From assembly GCA_900316275.1 (NCBI GenBank), contig ONCF01000021.1, forward strand, positions 1 through 33,584: 33,584 nucleotides of DNA, written 5' to 3'. A program made the position numbers and the translations under genes. Source of the stretch: an uncultured Veillonellaceae bacterium. GTDB taxonomy: Bacteria; Bacillota; Negativicutes; Selenomonadales; Selenomonadaceae. Shown one piece after another: positions 5,622-12,675 of this stretch. The notes beneath the pieces are model-generated. The model was not told where the DNA came from, searched no databases, and worked only from the letters and a program-made list of their open reading frames with translations. Numbering within the stretch: the stretch's first letter is position 1; every line of letters begins with the position of its first letter.

Positions 5622-5891
5622 ATGCAACAGCACGCAGCGCCGGAGACCAGCACACAGGCGGCTGAAGCCAAAACCACGCCAGCCAGCCAGCCTTCACAGG
5701 TGGCACAGCCGAAATATCAGGTGGGCGATATCGTACGCATGAAGAAGAAGCATCCCTGCGGCAGTTTTACCTGGGAAATTTTACGTACGGGGATGGATTT
5801 CCGTCTGAAATGCACAGGCTGTGGGCATGTGATTATGCTCGAGCGAAAAAAATTCGAGAAAATGTCACGGGGTATGGTTGAACATTTGTAA
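5622..5891 (+). CDS. DUF951 family protein with N-terminal extension
   Basis: Residues about 31-89 are a typical DUF951 domain: YQVGDIVRMKKKHPCGS, WEILRTGMDFRLKC, then GCGHVIMLERKKFEK. The conserved cysteines in HPCGS and CTGCG suggest a small zinc- or nucleic-acid-binding fold. The function is unknown; in other Firmicutes it often neighbours ychF. The first 30 residues are an Ala/Gln/Thr/Pro-rich tail not part of the domain. The ATG at 5622 has GGAGGGGA just upstream, so the extension appears to be translated. Divergent from the amidase across 72 bases. Confidence 0.88.
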   Translation: MQQHAAPETSTQAAEAKTTPASQPSQVAQPKYQVGDIVRMKKKHPCGSFTWEILRTGMDFRLKCTGCGHVIMLERKKFEKMSRGMVEHL

Positions 5892-5904
5892 ACCTGCGAA
5901 CCCT

Positions 5905-5933
5905 TGCGCGCTAACGGTTAGCGCGCCTTTTTT
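5905..5933 (+). terminator. Rho-independent terminator after the DUF951 gene
   Basis: Arms GCGCGCTA/TAGCGCGC around a 5-base loop, followed by CTTTTTT. Confidence 0.9.
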
Positions 5934-5990
5934 GTACCTCCATTATAACATAAAAATGCAGTATACAGGGAAAATGCAACTTTTTTACCC

Positions 5991-6019
5991 TTGCCAAGAA
6001 CTTTTGCTTGTGTTATCAT
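5991..6019 (+). promoter_or_regulatory. Promoter of the free-standing structured RNA
   Basis: TTGCCA (5991-5996), a 17-base spacer, TATCAT (6014-6019). Predicted start is near 6026. Confidence 0.6.
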
Positions 6020-6025
6020 ACAAAA

Positions 6026-6186
6026 CCTGTTCGCCACTGGGGGACAGACTTACGAGGTAACATGGCAACTTGTAAGGAACATCCTGTTTGGCCGTCTGAA
6101 GTTCGCCTGGTAATGACGCCACATCCGACAAGATTATAGTAGATCAGGCAAAGGCTGCGCCCCTGCGGGTGCAGTCTTTGTTTTTA
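6026..6186 (+). ncRNA. Free-standing structured RNA sharing the porin-leader hairpin
   Basis: About 160 nt between a 17-spaced promoter and an intrinsic terminator, with no plausible ORF. A rod-like fold can be drawn by hand: CAGAC (6045-6049) with GTCTG (6094-6098) encloses an 8-bp hairpin, CTTACGAG/CTTGTAAG, whose 12-nt loop (6057-6068) is GTAACATGGCAA. Outside it, ACTGGGGGAC pairs with GTTCGCCTGGT. The loop has the same length and pattern as the loops in the four porin leaders downstream. I considered 6S RNA (rod shape, UGUUCGC near the 5' end) but the length is short and the shared loop points to a link with the porins. No named RNA family is assigned. Confidence 0.55.
6155..6186 (+). terminator. 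Terminator of the free-standing RNA
   Basis: CTGCGCCC/GGGTGCAG (one G-U) with a 4-base loop, followed by TCTTTGTTTTTA. From here to 6321 I see no gene, only AT-rich spacer before the next promoter. Confidence 0.85.
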
Positions 6187-6321
6187 TTTCTTCCTATTAT
6201 ATATAGGAACTTTTGCACGCGTTTACACGCTGTTATTTTGGCTGGGGCAGAAAACTGCACGTCTCCGCGCATCCGCTGGCATGTATACAGGAAAGCGTCA
6301 AGAAAGTGTTCTCTGGGACAC

Positions 6322-6350
6322 TTGCAATCGGCTTATAAACATGTTATGAT
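6322..6350 (+). promoter_or_regulatory. Promoter of the first ompM-like gene
   Basis: TTGCAA, a 17-base spacer, TATGAT. Predicted start is near 6357, giving a leader of about 138 nt. Confidence 0.7.
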
Positions 6351-6356
6351 AGCACT

Positions 6357-6494
6357 AATCATTTGGTCACGGCCTAAAGACGGAGGAAACAAGGCAACTC
6401 CTAAGACAGGTCGAAACCGGTGAGAATGTTTCGCTTACGGAAACACTGACGCTTACAGTCGTGTTTTCCACTGTTTATGAGGAGGAGTATTTTT
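6357..6494 (+). promoter_or_regulatory. Structured leader of ompM-like gene 1
   Basis: Inner hairpin GGAG/CTCC (6382-6385, 6398-6401) with 12-nt loop GAAACAAGGCAA. The outer stem is TCACGG (6367-6372) with CCGGTGA (6417-6423, one bulge). A further TGTTTC/GAAACA hairpin follows before the ribosome-binding site. Confidence 0.6.
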
Positions 6495-7742
6495 ATGAAA
6501 AAGACTCTCGTATCTGCTCTGACCACGGCGCTGGTTGTCGGCGCTGCCAGCACGACGTTCGCAGCTGCGAACCCGTTCTCCGATGTCCCGGCTGATCACT
6601 GGGCCTATGATGCGGTGAGCCAGCTGGCTGCCGATGGCGTCATCGAGGGCTATGGCGACACGACGTTCCAGGGTGACAAGAACATCACGCGCTACGAGAT
6701 GGCGCAGATGGTTGCCAAGGCGATGGCCAAGTCCAGCACGGGCAACGTGAGCGGTGCTGACAAGGCCCTCGTGGACAAACTGGCGGCTGAGTTCTCCGAT
6801 GAGCTGAACAACCTCGGCGTCCGCGTGGCGAACCTCGAGCGCAACGCTGACAAAGTGAAGTGGACGGGTGAGATGCGTAACCTGGCCTACAGCACGCGCG
6901 AGGAAGGCAAGCACATGACGAACAACTACAAGACGCGTTTCCGTCTGCTGCCGTCCGCTGAGGTCGACGAGAACTGGCATGTCAAGGCTAAAATCGATGC
7001 CGATGTGAAAATCAACGAGGATGGCTCCAACGACGGCGCGAAGCTGAAAGAAGTGCACGCGGATGCTGTTTATCCCGGCTATGACCTGAAGCTCGGCAAG
7101 ATGGCTTACTTCTCCGATGCGGATGAGGGCCTGACGTTCGATACGTACTTCAGCGGCGCGCAGGTGTCGGCTGGCAAAGACGTCAAGGTGACGCTGTCCG
7201 GCGGTCGTATGAACCTGAAGGGCGAGACGCTCTGGGATGGTGTTGATGAGGCGGCGGATTTCGCTTCGCTGCAGGCTTTCGGTGCGGTCGGCAAGCTGAA
7301 CCTGAGCGCTTCGTATGCTTATCTCAAGGCTGACAGCATCAAGACGTATACGGGCGAGGACAAGGCTGGCATCTGGTCGGCAGGCGGCCGCTATACGTTC
7401 AATCCGAACGTCTCCGTGGCTGGTTTCTATGCCGAGAACGAGAAGGCTGACAAGGGCAACAAGAAGTCCGGGACGGCCGAGGTCGACTACAAGGGTGCTG
7501 ACAAGGCCAACGCTGGTACGTGGGGTGCCTATGTCGCTTACCGTCACGTCGGCAGCAATGCTTCGCCGATGCCGACGTTCGATACGTTCAATGACTTCTG
7601 CGATGCCAAAGGCTGGGAGGTCGGCGGTACCTATGTGCCGTTCAAGAACGTCAAGGCCTGGGTCTCCTACTTCGACGGCAAGGATCTGAACGATGACAGC
7701 AGCAAGAACGAGCTGTTCGGTCGTCTGAGCTTCTACTTCTGA
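6495..7742 (+). CDS. ompM: OmpM-like SLH-domain outer-membrane porin, copy 1
   Basis: A tether-and-pore protein of the diderm Firmicute envelope. Residues 1-24 are a signal peptide ending TTFAA. Residues about 26-80 are one SLH domain (NPFSDVPADHWAYDAV through ITRYEMAQMVAKAM), which binds peptidoglycan-linked polymer. Residues about 88-120 form a helical, coiled-coil-like stalk (DELNNLGVRVANLER). The rest is a beta-barrel ending in GRLSFYF with a terminal Phe typical of outer-membrane proteins. ATG 6495 has GAGGAGG upstream and gives 415 aa. It is first of four tandem paralogues: the N-terminal 120 residues are nearly the same in all, the barrels differ. Monocistronic, with its own promoter, leader and terminator. 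Confidence 0.93.
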   Translation: MKKTLVSALTTALVVGAASTTFAAANPFSDVPADHWAYDAVSQLAADGVIEGYGDTTFQGDKNITRYEMAQMVAKAMAKSSTGNVSGADKALVDKLAAEFSDELNNLGVRVANLERNADKVKWTGEMRNLAYSTREEGKHMTNNYKTRFRLLPSAEVDENWHVKAKIDADVKINEDGSNDGAKLKEVHADAVYPGYDLKLGKMAYFSDADEGLTFDTYFSGAQVSAGKDVKVTLSGGRMNLKGETLWDGVDEAADFASLQAFGAVGKLNLSASYAYLKADSIKTYTGEDKAGIWSAGGRYTFNPNVSVAGFYAENEKADKGNKKSGTAEVDYKGADKANAGTWGAYVAYRHVGSNASPMPTFDTFNDFCDAKGWEVGGTYVPFKNVKAWVSYFDGKDLNDDSSKNELFGRLSFYF

Positions 7743-7772
7743 TTGCTTTAAAGGTTAACACATTTTATGTGG

Positions 7773-7797
7773 AGCCTCCCGTTAGGGAGGCTTTTTT
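7773..7797 (+). terminator. Terminator after ompM copy 1
   Basis: AGCCTCCC/GGGAGGCT, loop GTTA, then TTTTTT. Confidence 0.95.
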
Positions 7798-7888
7798 ATT
7801 GCAACGTTTACAGTTTTAGTCGAAACTGCAAGAAAGTTGAGTCAGTCATTAAATTTTGCTTTTTACCTGAAATTTACCTCTACTTTAG

Positions 7889-7917
7889 TTGAATTTAGCT
7901 GAAAAACGTGCTATGAT
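7889..7917 (+). promoter_or_regulatory. Promoter of ompM copy 2
   Basis: TTGAAT, a 17-base spacer, TATGAT. Predicted start is near 7924. Confidence 0.7.
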
Positions 7918-7923
7918 TGACCC

Positions 7924-8034
7924 AATCGAAGGTCGAGGCAACGAGACTGAGGAAACATGGACACTCATGAGGAATTGCCTCCCTGCCTTTGAGAATACAT
8001 TATTCACTGTTTTTTTATAAGGAGGAGTTTCTTT
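7924..8034 (+). promoter_or_regulatory. Structured leader of ompM copy 2
   Basis: Perfect outer stem GAGGCAA (7935-7941) with TTGCCTC (7975-7981). Inner hairpin TGAG/CTCA (7948-7951, 7964-7967) with 12-nt loop GAAACATGGACA. Confidence 0.65.
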
Positions 8035-9282
8035 ATGAAAAAGACTCTCGTATCCGCTCTGACGGCCGCTCTGGTTGTCGGCGCTGCCAGCACGACGTTT
8101 GCTGCTGCGAACCCGTTCTCTGATGTCCCGGCTGATCACTGGGCCTATGATGCTGTGAGCCAGCTGGCTGCCGATGGTGTCATCGAGGGCTATGGCGACA
8201 CGACGTTCCAGGGCGACAAGAACATCACGCGTTATGAGATGGCGCAGATGGTTGCCAAGGCGATGGCGAAGTCCAACACGGGCAATGTCAACGGCGCTGA
8301 CAAGGCTCTGATTGACAAACTGGCTGCTGAGTTCTCCGATGAGCTGAACAACCTTGGCGTCCGCGTGAGCAACCTCGAGCGCAACGCTGACATGGTGAAA
8401 TGGAACGGCGAGATGCGTGTGCAGGCCATCAGTGAGCGTAATGAAGGTCAGCATATGCAGAACAAGTATCCGGCCCTGCTCCGTCTGGAGCCGTCCGCTG
8501 AGGTCAACAGCAACTGGCATGTGAAGGCGCGTATCGATTCCAAGGTTGCGAACCTCGCTGAGGATTCCTCTAAAAACACGGCTGAGCTGCAGCGTGTCTA
8601 TGCTGAAGGCAAATATGGCAACACGAAGCTTGATTTCGGCAAAATCCCGACGGTCTTCAACACGAACATGCTGTTCGATGGCCAGTTCTCCGGTGCCAGC
8701 GTCACGACGGGCAACAAGCTGAAGTTCACGGCGCTCGGCGGCCGTTGGAGCCAGGTCGGTGGCGGCAATGATGTAGCTGCTGATGTCTACGGTGCTGGCG
8801 TGAAGTATACGCTGGGCAAGGCTTCCGCTGGTGCGGCTTATCATGAGCTGAAGGGCGACGGCTTTGAGACGCGTGCGAACTATCGTAACGGTTCTACGTC
8901 CGACAAGGCACAGATTTGGTCTGTTGATGGCTACTATCGTTTCGATGGCAACACGGCGCTCGGCGGTGAGTATGCGCAGAACCAGAAAGCTGACAACTAC
9001 GATAAGTCCGGTACGGTTGAGTTCGACTACAAGGGCGTGAAGAAGGCCAATGCTGGTACGTGGGGCGCTTATGTCGCTTACCGTCACCTCGGCCAGAACG
9101 TCTCTCTGAAATCGAACACGCTGAACTACGCTGCTATGCAAGGCACGAAGGGCTGGGAGATCGGTGCTGACTACACGCTCTTCAAGAACACGGTTGCTTA
9201 CCTGAAGTACTTCGATGGTGAGAAACTGGCTGGCGGCAAAGATGCTTCCAAGCTCATGGGCCGTCTGTCCTTCTTCTTCTGA
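8035..9282 (+). CDS. ompM: OmpM-like SLH-domain outer-membrane porin, copy 2
   Basis: Same plan as copy 1: signal peptide (1-24), one SLH domain, helical stalk (LGVRVSNLERNADMVKW), then a beta-barrel ending LMGRLSFFF; 415 aa. The first 120 residues differ from copy 1 at only a handful of positions (for example TAAL for TTAL, NTGNVNGADKALID for STGNVSGADKALVD). The barrel is clearly divergent until the shared blocks NAGTWGAYVAYRH and KGWE near the C-terminus. ATG 8035 follows AAGGAGGAG. Its own promoter and leader imply separate regulation from copies 1, 3 and 4. Confidence 0.93.
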   Translation: MKKTLVSALTAALVVGAASTTFAAANPFSDVPADHWAYDAVSQLAADGVIEGYGDTTFQGDKNITRYEMAQMVAKAMAKSNTGNVNGADKALIDKLAAEFSDELNNLGVRVSNLERNADMVKWNGEMRVQAISERNEGQHMQNKYPALLRLEPSAEVNSNWHVKARIDSKVANLAEDSSKNTAELQRVYAEGKYGNTKLDFGKIPTVFNTNMLFDGQFSGASVTTGNKLKFTALGGRWSQVGGGNDVAADVYGAGVKYTLGKASAGAAYHELKGDGFETRANYRNGSTSDKAQIWSVDGYYRFDGNTALGGEYAQNQKADNYDKSGTVEFDYKGVKKANAGTWGAYVAYRHLGQNVSLKSNTLNYAAMQGTKGWEIGADYTLFKNTVAYLKYFDGEKLAGGKDASKLMGRLSFFF

Positions 9283-9319
9283 TAAGACGAAGGGTACAAT
9301 CCTATAAGGAACCTACAGG

Positions 9320-9350
9320 GGCTCCCGCTTATTGCGGGGGCTCTTGTTTT
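9320..9350 (+). terminator. Terminator after ompM copy 2
   Basis: GGCTCCCGC/GCGGGGGCT (with G-U), 5-base loop, then CTTGTTTT. Confidence 0.85.
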
Positions 9351-9595
9351 AGTTCGAGGCAGTCCTCCGGGCAGGAACGTAACTTTTTCTGGTCCTAAAC
9401 TCTACTGGGATCCTGAAAACAAACTGGCGCCTTTCGCGCTCCTGGCGTGATTTTCAGCCTCCTTTCAGTGAAATGCGCGGCTTTTTCGGACGAAGTGCGC
9501 TCTCTTAGCGGCGGGTGATGTGTCCTTTAATCGACGGTTAGTTGAGCTGGTCATCTATTTAAGCAAAAGAGTAGTAAACGATAACGGCCGCGTAA
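9351..9595. other. Gene-free spacer between ompM copies 2 and 3
   Basis: I see no ORF with a ribosome-binding site here. The one structure noticed is a spaced inverted repeat CTGAAAA (9413-9419) / TTTTCAG (9451-9457). The role is unknown; it could be residual intergenic sequence from the gene duplications. Confidence 0.4.
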
Positions 9596-9624
9596 TTGTA
9601 ATTGACTAAGTCAAGTAATATAAT
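9596..9624 (+). promoter_or_regulatory. Promoter of ompM copy 3
   Basis: TTGTAA, a 17-base spacer, TATAAT. Predicted start is near 9631. Confidence 0.7.
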
Positions 9625-9630
9625 GAAGAT

Positions 9631-9766
9631 GTTCCAAGGGAAGGGGCACCAAAACACAAGGCGCTGAGGAAACAAGGACACTCCGCCAAGCAACTGGAGC
9701 CGATCCCCTCCCACGGAACAGCAACATTAACAGCGATTGCGCCAGAGGCGCAAGGAGGAGATTATC
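9631..9766 (+). promoter_or_regulatory. Structured leader of ompM copy 3
   Basis: Outer stems GTTCC/GGAAC (9631-9635, 9715-9719) and GGGAAGGGG/CCCCTCCC (9638-9646, 9705-9712). Inner GAG/CTC hairpin (9666-9668, 9681-9683) with 12-nt loop GAAACAAGGACA, extended by GGC/GCC. Confidence 0.65.
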
Positions 9767-11074
9767 ATGAAAAAGACCGTTATTTCCGCTATCACCACTG
9801 CTCTTGTCGTCGGTGCTGCCAGCACGACGTTCGCCGCGGCGAACCCGTTCACGGATGTGCCGTCTGATCACTGGGCCTATGATGCGGTGAGCCAGCTGGC
9901 TGCCGATGGTGTCATCGAGGGCTACGGCGACACGACGTTCCAGGGCGACAAGAACATCACGCGCTACGAGATGGCACAGATGGTAGCGAAGGCCATGGCC
10001 AAGTCGAACAGCGGCAATGTCAATGCAGCGGACAAGGCGCTCATCGACAAGCTGGCCGCCGAGTTCTCGGATGAGCTGAACAACCTCGGCGTGCGCGTCT
10101 CGAACCTCGAGCGCAACGCGGACAAGGTGAAGTGGAACGGCGAGGCCCGCTACACCTACACGAGCACGCGTGACAAGAGCGCGACGAAGGACAAGGTGAA
10201 CGATGATGAACTGCTGCTGCGCCTGGAGCCGAGCGCGGAGATCAACAATCACTGGCATGTGAATGCCCGCCTCGATGCCTCCACGGATCTCGCGAAGGAC
10301 AGCGGCAACGATAACCACGGCAGCAGCCAGGATACGGACGTTTCGCTGAAACGCATCTATGCGGATGGCCAGTATGGCACGACGAACATCAAGCTCGGCA
10401 AACTGCCGCAGCAGCTGGACAGCGACCTGCTGTTCGATGATGAAATCTCCGGCGCGAGCGTGACGACGGGCAAGGACCTCAAGGTCACGCTCCAGGGCGG
10501 CCGCTATGACCTCACGGATGACACGAACAACACGCAGGTGGCAAATGTGGTCGGTGCGAATGGCAACGACACGGCGGATATGGCGAGCGTGGGCCTGCAG
10601 TATGGCCTGGGCAAGCTGGATATGGGCGCGAGCTACCATCATCTGACGAGCGACAATTTCAAGAACTATGTGGGCTACAAGACGAGCGGCAGCGCGTCGG
10701 ATGAGGCGAATATCTGGGCCGTGAACGGCAAGTACACGTTCGACCACAACGTCTCGCTCGGCGGCACGTACGCGGAGAACACGGAGGCGGACAGCTACGA
10801 GAAGGCTGGCAGCGTCGAGCTCGCCTACAAGGGCGCGCAGCCGGAGAACCAGGGCACCTGGGGCATCTATACGGCTTACCGTCATCTCGGCCAGAACGTA
10901 GCGCTCGATCCGTCCTATGACGGCGCCTGGGCCGGCACGAAAGGCTGGGAGGTCGGCACGAACTACACGCTGGCCAAGAATACGGTGGCTTCGCTGAAGT
11001 ATTTCAACGGTGAGAAGCTGGATAACAGCAAGGACGCCGAGAAGCTGTTCGGCCGCGTCGAGTTCAAGTTCTAA
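9767..11074 (+). CDS. ompM: OmpM-like SLH-domain outer-membrane porin, copy 3
   Basis: 435 aa, the longest of the four. Signal peptide (MKKTVISAITTALVVG to TTFAA), SLH domain starting NPFTDVPSDHWAYD, stalk LGVRVSNLERNADKVKW, and a barrel ending LFGRVEFKF. The extra length is in barrel loops, including an Asp/Asn-rich stretch (DSGNDNHGSSQDTD) and another near DLTDDTNNTQ, which look like surface loops. ATG 9767 has AAGGAGGAG upstream. Codon use is somewhat more GC-rich than copies 2 and 4, so the copy is not a very recent duplicate over its whole length. Confidence 0.93.
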   Translation: MKKTVISAITTALVVGAASTTFAAANPFTDVPSDHWAYDAVSQLAADGVIEGYGDTTFQGDKNITRYEMAQMVAKAMAKSNSGNVNAADKALIDKLAAEFSDELNNLGVRVSNLERNADKVKWNGEARYTYTSTRDKSATKDKVNDDELLLRLEPSAEINNHWHVNARLDASTDLAKDSGNDNHGSSQDTDVSLKRIYADGQYGTTNIKLGKLPQQLDSDLLFDDEISGASVTTGKDLKVTLQGGRYDLTDDTNNTQVANVVGANGNDTADMASVGLQYGLGKLDMGASYHHLTSDNFKNYVGYKTSGSASDEANIWAVNGKYTFDHNVSLGGTYAENTEADSYEKAGSVELAYKGAQPENQGTWGIYTAYRHLGQNVALDPSYDGAWAGTKGWEVGTNYTLAKNTVASLKYFNGEKLDNSKDAEKLFGRVEFKF

Positions 11075-11150
11075 GGCAAAGCTTTAGTTTGCATAGCAAA
11101 CTTTTAGATTAAAATTTCTACCAAAGTTTAACTGCAAATTACTATCGTTG

Positions 11151-11197
11151 AACGTCAAGTGATGACCGCGCTGGTCGCGGTTCCACACTTGGCGTTT
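11151..11197 (+). terminator. Terminator after ompM copy 3
   Basis: AACGTCAAGTG/CACTTGGCGTT (11 bp, one G-U) with an inner CCGCG/CGCGG, then TTTTT. Confidence 0.9.
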
Positions 11198-11256
11198 TTG
11201 TGGCGTTTATTAGAGAAAATGCGTAGTTGAGAGGTACTATCAGTCACAATAGCCCC

Positions 11257-11285
11257 TTGCAATTTTCAGAGACGAGTGCTAAGAT
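11257..11285 (+). promoter_or_regulatory. Promoter of ompM copy 4
   Basis: TTGCAA, a 17-base spacer, TAAGAT. Predicted start is near 11292. Confidence 0.65.
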
Positions 11286-11291
11286 AGGCGT

Positions 11292-11406
11292 CGGTTGAGG
11301 GAGAACCCGCCACCGCCAGACAGGAAACATGGACACTATCGCGTGGGTGACGGGAGCTCGCTCGACCTGAGATGTTTCAACTTTTTATTCTAGGGGGAAT
11401 AAAATC
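11292..11406 (+). promoter_or_regulatory. Structured leader of ompM copy 4
   Basis: Outer stem GGTTGAGGGAG (11293-11303) with CTCGCTCGACC (11357-11367), 11 pairs with one mismatch and one G-U. Middle CCAC/GTGG. Inner GACAG/CTATC (one mismatch) with 12-nt loop GAAACATGGACA (11324-11335). Confidence 0.65.
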
Positions 11407-12675
11407 ATGAAAAAGACTCTCGTTTCCGCACTCACGGCTGCACTGGTTGTCGGTGCTGCCAGCACGACGTTCGCTGCGGCGAACCCGTTCTCCGATGTGC
11501 CGTCTGACCACTGGGCCTATGACGCTGTGAGCCAGCTGGCTGCCGATGGCGTCATCGAGGGCTACGGTGACACGACGTTCCAGGGCGACAAGAACATCAC
11601 GCGCTACGAGATGGCGCAGATGGTTGCCAAGGCGATGGCGAAGGCCAGCGCGGGCAATGTGAGCGGCGCCGACAAGGCGCTCGTGGACAAGCTCGCTGCT
11701 GAGTTCTCCGATGAGCTGAACAACCTCGGCGTCCGCGTAGCCAACCTCGAGCGCAATGCTGACATGGTGAAATGGAACGGCACGGCCGAGTACACGATTG
11801 CTCGTCCGCACAAAGACCATCAGTCTGGTGCAGCTGATAAGGCTGGCAACGTGAACAACGTCCTGTTCCGTCTCGAGCCGAGCGCTGAGATTAACAACCA
11901 TTGGCATGTGAATGCACGTCTCGATGCTAACTCCGACCTCGCTAATGATAAGGGCGATGACGGCAAAGTTACGCTGAAGCGCGTTTATGCACTGGGCAAC
12001 TATGGTGCTTTCACGGGCAAGTTCGGTAAATTTGCGCCTATCGATGATGACAGCATCTTCGATACGCAGTTCTCTGGTGCTGAGGTTGCTTACAACAAGG
12101 GCGCTTGGAGTGTTGTAGCTGCGGCTGGCCGCAACAACAATGCTGATGACAATGCTACGGATGTGGCTAACTATCAGTACTATGGTATCGGTTATGTCAA
12201 CGGCAAGCTGACGGCTGGTGCTGACTTCCACGAGCTGACTTCCAGCACGGTGGCAGCTGATTACTTCGATAGCAGCTCCTACAAGAAGAGCGGCACGACG
12301 GATCAGGCTGATATCTGGCTGCTGAAGGGCTCCTACACGTTTGACCACAACAATGCAGTCAGCGGTTTCTATGCTGAGAACCATGATGCTGATGCCTTCG
12401 AGAAGGCTGGCAGCCTCGAGTATGACTACAAGGGCGCACAGCGTGAAAATGCTGGCACTTGGGGTGCTTGGGTAGCTTATCGTCATCTGGGCGATAACGT
12501 GGCTGCTTTCAGCACGTTCGATGCTGTTGACGCTGGCTGGAAAGCTTGGGAGATCGGTGCTAACTACGCTCCGTTCAAGAACGTGGTCGCACAGGCTCGC
12601 TATGCTAAGGGCAAGACGCTCGCTGGCGACACCGATGTCGATAAGATCTTCGGCCGCGTGAACTTCTTCTTCTGA
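11407..12675 (+). CDS. ompM: OmpM-like SLH-domain outer-membrane porin, copy 4
   Basis: 422 aa with the same order of parts: signal peptide, SLH domain (NPFSDVPSDHWAYD), stalk (LGVRVANLERNADMVKW), and a barrel ending IFGRVNFFF. The barrel has its own sequence between about residue 125 and the shared block NAGTWGAWVAYRHLG. The ribosome-binding site is a weaker GGGGG run before ATAAAATC-ATG. It ends the array: the next gene, alr, has its own promoter. In Negativicutes such proteins are abundant envelope components; which copy dominates cannot be told from sequence. Confidence 0.93.
   Translation: MKKTLVSALTAALVVGAASTTFAAANPFSDVPSDHWAYDAVSQLAADGVIEGYGDTTFQGDKNITRYEMAQMVAKAMAKASAGNVSGADKALVDKLAAEFSDELNNLGVRVANLERNADMVKWNGTAEYTIARPHKDHQSGAADKAGNVNNVLFRLEPSAEINNHWHVNARLDANSDLANDKGDDGKVTLKRVYALGNYGAFTGKFGKFAPIDDDSIFDTQFSGAEVAYNKGAWSVVAAAGRNNNADDNATDVANYQYYGIGYVNGKLTAGADFHELTSSTVAADYFDSSSYKKSGTTDQADIWLLKGSYTFDHNNAVSGFYAENHDADAFEKAGSLEYDYKGAQRENAGTWGAWVAYRHLGDNVAAFSTFDAVDAGWKAWEIGANYAPFKNVVAQARYAKGKTLAGDTDVDKIFGRVNFFF

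Follow-up and report, generated by a model that had tools for sequence, protein, structure and literature searches.

The SLH motif was reported as a riboswitch candidate, from Thermovirga lienii, by Stav et al. 2019 (PMC6429828). That report gives 80 examples from Synergistaceae, Clostridia and Negativicutes, with about 60% SLH genes and 40% genes of unknown function as neighbours, and suggests perhaps cyclic di-GMP as the ligand. Our search of the literature on outer-membrane protein (OMP) gene control in diderm Firmicutes found no paper besides this candidate. In this study, we analysed a stretch of 33,584 nucleotides (nt) from an uncultured Veillonellaceae bacterium (contig ONCF01000021.1), called the window below, in which the leaders of four ompM genes each carry a hairpin with a conserved 12-nt loop. 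It is quite probable that this element is the SLH motif, judging from the published distribution and gene context. The position upstream of SLH genes is shared (193 of our 215 distinct instances lie 5' of SLH/OmpM genes, a share that is biased because ompM similarity was used to retrieve many of the loci), and the published spread over Negativicutes and Clostridia-type Firmicutes fits the outer-membrane-linked spread found here. Compared to the 80 published examples, our 150 genomes contain more than 400 copies, and almost every copy that we examined is 5' of an OMP gene. If the two are the same, what is new is the near-universality in Negativicutes, the association with OMP genes at large and with Omp85, the predicted location at the transcription start (+1), the loop consensus, the complementarity to the Shine-Dalgarno sequence and the exclusion of CsrA.

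The loop GRAACNNGGNNA, closed by RAG/CUY, was present in all four ompM leaders of the window. An earlier note on this DNA had described a short stem with a 12-nt loop in each leader, and all four loops were found where it had placed them. All features given here are on the forward strand. In leader hairpin 1 (6364-6419), the loop GAAACAAGGCAA occupies 6386-6397 between the inner stem arms GAG (6383-6385) and CTC (6398-6400). Leader hairpin 2 (7926-7992) has the loop GAAACATGGACA at 7952-7963 and the outer stem GAGGCAA/TTGCCTC; leader hairpin 3 (9630-9720) has GAAACAAGGACA at 9669-9680 and the terminal stem TGTTCC/GGAACA; and leader hairpin 4 (11293-11367) has GAAACATGGACA again, at 11324-11335, with the outer stem GGTTGAGGGAG/CTCGCTCGACC. 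The outer stems quoted in the note appeared in the minimum-energy folds of three leaders, and these folds were more stable than those of shuffled sequences in unconstrained folding (z-scores of -2.41, -2.18 and -2.36 for leaders 2, 3 and 4). In leader 1 the fold differed, with the overlapping pairings CGGCCU/AGGUCG and UGGU/ACCG preferred over TCACGG/CCGGTGA, and taken alone it was unremarkable (z -1.15 against shuffles, again unconstrained). A covariance model trained on 55 leaders scored leaders 1 to 4 at 36.4 bits (match 6354-6431, E 1.4e-10), 44.3, 32.9 and 30.8 bits, values that arise partly by construction, the four being in the training set.

No Rfam 15 family matched at the gathering threshold, and relaxing the cutoff to E 10 over 5880-11410 gave no match either. 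The suggestion that the element might be the TwoAYGGAY motif (RF01731) is ruled out by the features that define this motif. Both have a GG-containing hairpin loop, and AUGGAC occurs in two of the four window loops; however, TwoAYGGAY is defined by two AYGGAY terminal loops, whereas here each leader has one hairpin with a longer loop of different consensus. The window hexamers to be compared with AYGGAY are AAGGCA, ATGGAC, AAGGAC and ATGGAC, of which only two conform.

From named Selenomonadaceae genomes, 78 loci with the closest relatives of OmpM were gathered. The string [AT]AACANGG was found in 61 of 77 leaders by a strict search and in 66, plus the five window copies, by a looser one; the loop of this set is GAAACAWGGAHA, and its closing G is invariant. 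When the hairpin arms were swapped among 60 dereplicated leaders, the mean pairing energy changed from -23.7 kcal/mol (native) to -13.5 kcal/mol (swapped; z -19.9), and with the inner 5 nt of each side removed it was still -18.2 against -9.9 kcal/mol. For three of the window leaders, the best pairing partner of the 5' arm was its own 3' arm. In a gapless alignment of 55 leaders, the covariation score was 0.338, compared to 0.175 +/- 0.016 for shuffled alignments (0 of 500 reached it); the score peaked in register and was lower at every slide of the 3' side from -3 to +3. The p-values here and below ignore shared ancestry. The arm-swap and covariation results show, by comparison of sequences, that the element is an RNA structure under selection, in agreement with the claim of the note that the outer arms are dissimilar and still pair. 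The same results bear on a DNA operator for a transcription factor just 3' of the promoter. An inverted repeat RAG-N12-CTY near +1 could serve as such a site, but an operator does not require long outer arms that pair without sequence conservation, and we regard this explanation as hardly credible.

The element is widespread in the class. A covariance model from the Selenomonadaceae leaders detected it in 135 of 150 Negativicutes genomes at E 0.01, and the pattern RAGGRAACNNGGNNACTY was found in 139 of the 150, with 434 matches compared to 22 for the reversed pattern (sums from the table). Family f4, the one family that seemed an exception, has a 13-nt loop, GAAACNAGGANAA, within GAG/CUC and 5' of ompM genes (variant loci L274, L276, L278-L280, L282, L284, L286, L290 and L293). 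Two genomes that appeared negative, G067 and G139, have the loop inside a GUG/CAC inner stem, a compensatory substitution at a pair that is invariant elsewhere. One genome (G025) has a single ompM in which the element was not recognisable, and in another (G042) an ompM match was not found. Loop positions 6, 7, 10 and 11 vary freely. In families f15 and f28, position 10 shifts from A towards C or T, with GRAAC, GG and the final A fixed. An upstream open reading frame starting at the AUG in GAGGAAACAUGG was rejected, as many loops have AAG, ACG, CAG or even TAG at this codon.

Outside the Negativicutes, the occurrence of the element across the phylum follows that of an outer membrane. In a phylum-wide sample of 119 genomes, the pattern was found in 24 of the 29 with Omp85 and in 6 of the 90 without it (Fisher p 6e-15). 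Inspection of 33 loci placed the hairpin 5' of signal-peptide genes resembling outer-membrane barrels or SLH-porins in 19 Omp85-bearing genomes from outside the Negativicutes. Ten proteins at non-Negativicutes loci were scanned against Pfam, and five had SLH, one had Porin_4 and four had no Pfam family. The arm swap gave z -16.1 for 32 leaders from families elsewhere in the phylum, and -12.9 for the outer arms alone. In three genomes with Omp85 and a pattern match (G176, G187 and G223) the hairpin was not confirmed. Three pattern-matching genomes without Omp85 were inspected and had no gene like an outer-membrane barrel or SLH-porin at the match, which fits chance matches. At loci L302-L330, which belong to non-Negativicutes lineages with an outer membrane, the element was seen heading genes for outer-membrane barrels or SLH-porins.

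The element is not specific to ompM. Its targets other than SLH/OmpM genes were mostly other outer-membrane barrels, an e(P4) nucleotidase or a TonB-type receptor. They included SLH-less barrels (one, at L148, with Porin_4) and five e(P4)-type 5'-nucleotidases in five genomes (TIGR01533, E 2.6e-78; L137, L139, L150, L159 and L161), and one target of the latter type is in the window's own genome (G000:C13). A gene resembling a TonB-dependent receptor, by sequence reading, follows the element at L182 in family f15. This range of targets bears on the proposal of Stav et al. for the SLH motif that the hairpin is a riboswitch binding a small molecule or ion. The conserved loop, a possible alternative pairing with the Shine-Dalgarno sequence and the SLH-gene association in the motif's published description (PMC6429828) would suit a riboswitch. 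However, the targets are structural outer-membrane proteins and not one pathway, an aptamer consisting of a lone hairpin with a single 12-nt loop would be small, no Rfam riboswitch matched, and by inspection no terminator follows the four window hairpins. We consider a riboswitch unlikely.

The leaders have a common anatomy. A predicted -10 box precedes the hairpin, whose outer stem starts at a median of 1 nt past the predicted +1 (76% within 4 nt), and the pairing probability across the loop rises at the predicted +1. The hairpin is long and imperfect, with about 23 pairs. Its 3' arm ends about 33 nt past the loop and is followed by a linker rich in U (43% T, with a median length of 20 nt) and then by the Shine-Dalgarno sequence and the start codon. 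No U-run was found 3' of the hairpin in the four window leaders, and thus it does not serve as an attenuator in them. The apical loop paired at most slightly with the downstream leader (-4.8 against -4.4, p 0.002), and when conserved pairing of the loop was tested against the rest of the leader none was found with the 3' arm. The anatomy recalls the E. coli ompA 5' leader, which likewise has a hairpin at the 5' end of the mRNA for a major outer-membrane protein and a strong Shine-Dalgarno sequence, although the likeness is an analogy only. To our knowledge, the ompA leader has no comparable conserved loop consensus. A passive stabilising hairpin of this kind, acting without a dedicated factor, would account for the location at +1, the long stem and the strong Shine-Dalgarno sequence downstream, and mRNA protection by 5' stem-loops is documented (PMC7509114). 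It leaves unexplained a loop that is near-invariant across the phylum, and we find it improbable.

In most families, the 3' arm is complementary to the gene's own Shine-Dalgarno sequence. CUCC occurred in 58 of 175 3' arms, compared to 20 expected, and GGAG was not enriched in the 5' arms. The duplex of 3' arm and Shine-Dalgarno sequence had a mean of -10.2 kcal/mol, stronger than with shuffled arms (-7.3 kcal/mol, p 7e-26) and also stronger than with the exact complement of the own 5' arm (-8.75 kcal/mol, p 3e-5). Situated about 18 nt past the loop, the complementary segment is itself paired within the hairpin at a probability of 0.70. Family f1 and the pool of other families show strong complementarity. 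In the window, the 3' arm of leader 2 (CCTCCC) is complementary to the Shine-Dalgarno sequence as well, and that of leader 3 (CCCCTCC) pairs with it at -12.4 kcal/mol.

We suggest, with somewhat better than even confidence, that the element is a 5'-terminal hairpin on OMP mRNAs that is read by a candidate trans factor tuning mRNA stability or translation. The hairpin would act in cis, starting at +1 or a few bases from it, capped by the RAG/CUY helix and the loop GRAACNNGGNNA. The factor, common to outer-membrane-bearing Bacillota and most likely a non-CsrA RNA-binding protein, would read the loop and thereby set the lifetime of OMP mRNAs, their translation, or both, for the whole OMP gene set together. 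In most families, although not all, the stem may also work as an anti-anti-Shine-Dalgarno: with the 3' arm held by the 5' arm the ribosome site would be free and translation on, with the 3' arm on the Shine-Dalgarno sequence it would be off, and holding or opening the hairpin would switch the output. The idea in the note of a cis-acting element in porin leaders is supported by these observations, and the loop does resemble a recognition site.

Several points weigh against this proposal. The transcription starts are predictions from sequence, and the p-values are optimistic because the sequences are related. The factor that would read the loop is hypothetical, and an effect on expression is what we infer. 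Complementarity to the Shine-Dalgarno sequence is weak in families f15 and f25, and among the window leaders it is clear for 2 and 3 only; because of this weakness in two families and two window leaders it cannot be the conserved function, and we read it as a lineage-variable output stage. Lastly, the predicted hairpin has about -24 kcal/mol and the alternative pairing about -10 kcal/mol. The hairpin is thus far stronger, and therefore a switch would need help in opening.

CsrA was considered as the factor. As in CsrA/RsmA binding hairpins, ACA-N-GGA lies in a hairpin loop in many copies of the element: the Selenomonadaceae loop holds it in the form known from the consensus RUACARGGAUGU (PMC7652899), obtained by systematic evolution of ligands by exponential enrichment. 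The window's genome has two csrA genes (G000:C81:3567-3725 and G000:C100:31539-31685); the second is more divergent and recurs in several related genomes. However, CsrA/RsmA sites have a hexaloop, whereas the element has a 12-nt loop, does not require GGA and persists without csrA. We found csrA in 84 of the 150 class genomes and not in the other 66, most of which keep the element. All loops of the csrA-less family f25 (43/43) and of two csrA-less f1 genera (15/15) retain GGA. Where csrA is present, ANGGA is found in only 55% of loops, and GGC, GGT or GGG replaces GGA in about 10%. In f15 this replacement reaches 60% (GGA 40%); the window loops themselves include GGC. CsrA was rejected as the general partner because csrA-less families keep the GGA loop, and a CsrA binding site is a very improbable explanation of the element.

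Alternatively, a trans-acting small RNA might recognise the loop by loop-loop pairing, for which a short seed could suffice. The conserved loop is single-stranded, as such a target would be. In Gammaproteobacteria, OMP mRNAs are commonly under small-RNA control. MicA, for example, acts on ompA (PMC7509114). However, the conserved pattern is nowhere on the reverse strand of the window's genome, the full loop pattern is only scattered elsewhere, and positions 6, 7, 10 and 11 are free to vary. We hold this to be quite improbable. We give a little less than even odds to a dedicated RNA-based outer-membrane regulon, in which one trans factor would have come from an ancestral diderm Firmicute, been lost with the outer membrane in monoderms, and read the loop on OMP mRNAs to set the supply of outer-membrane proteins. 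Such a regulon would be functionally comparable to the control that sigma-E and small RNAs exert over OMPs in Proteobacteria.

A motif that heads OMP messages almost only alongside Omp85 offers a direct handle on OMP control, and may point to an old, RNA-based control of the outer membrane. It also supplies a non-protein character for the debate on the ancestral status of the outer membrane in Firmicutes (Antunes et al. 2016, PMC5007114). The motif is testable in Veillonella, for which ompM deletion mutants have been reported (PMC10628300).

The note had counted 6026-6186 as a fifth copy. The covariance model does recover the hairpin there (17.7 bits, E 5.5e-4; this copy is outside the training set), but the region is a gene remnant. 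At 6025-6113, a leader hairpin with the stem CTTACGAG/CTTGTAAG and the loop GTAACATGGCAA is fused to the final 11 codons of an ompM gene, the coding remnant NILFGRLKFAW plus stop at 6078-6113 being a typical OmpM C-terminus. In the relative G001 this 3' end is intact, the ompM there ending in ENILFGRLKFVW and a stop. A terminator-like hairpin with a T-run (6153-6188, by sequence reading) aligns with the terminator 3' of the G001 ompM and is a remnant of the deleted gene. The sole match of the W0 sequence search of relatives was the ompM 3' end. Because a leader hairpin is fused to the last 11 ompM codons and a terminator, this copy is the deletion scar of a fifth ompM paralogue. A role as a small RNA or sponge was ruled out, since it is a remnant of ompM.

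The four genes 3' of the hairpins, with an SLH domain and porin-like bodies, are OmpM. They are ompM1 (6495-7742; SLH-domain protein with porin-like body, PF00395 E 1.4e-13), ompM2 (8035-9282; SLH-porin, E 1.9e-13, Porin_4 weak), ompM3 (9767-11074; SLH-porin, E 4.9e-14, Porin_4 and Porin_5 weak) and ompM4 (11407-12675; SLH-domain protein, E 4.8e-14). Their predicted -10 boxes, from sequence reading, are TATGAT at 6345-6350, TATGAT at 7912-7917, TATAAT at 9619-9624 and TAAGAT at 11280-11285, respectively. An exact-match scan of viral contigs gave two matches in one coding region, dismissed as chance. The window's own genome has one more ompM with the element, at G000:C28.

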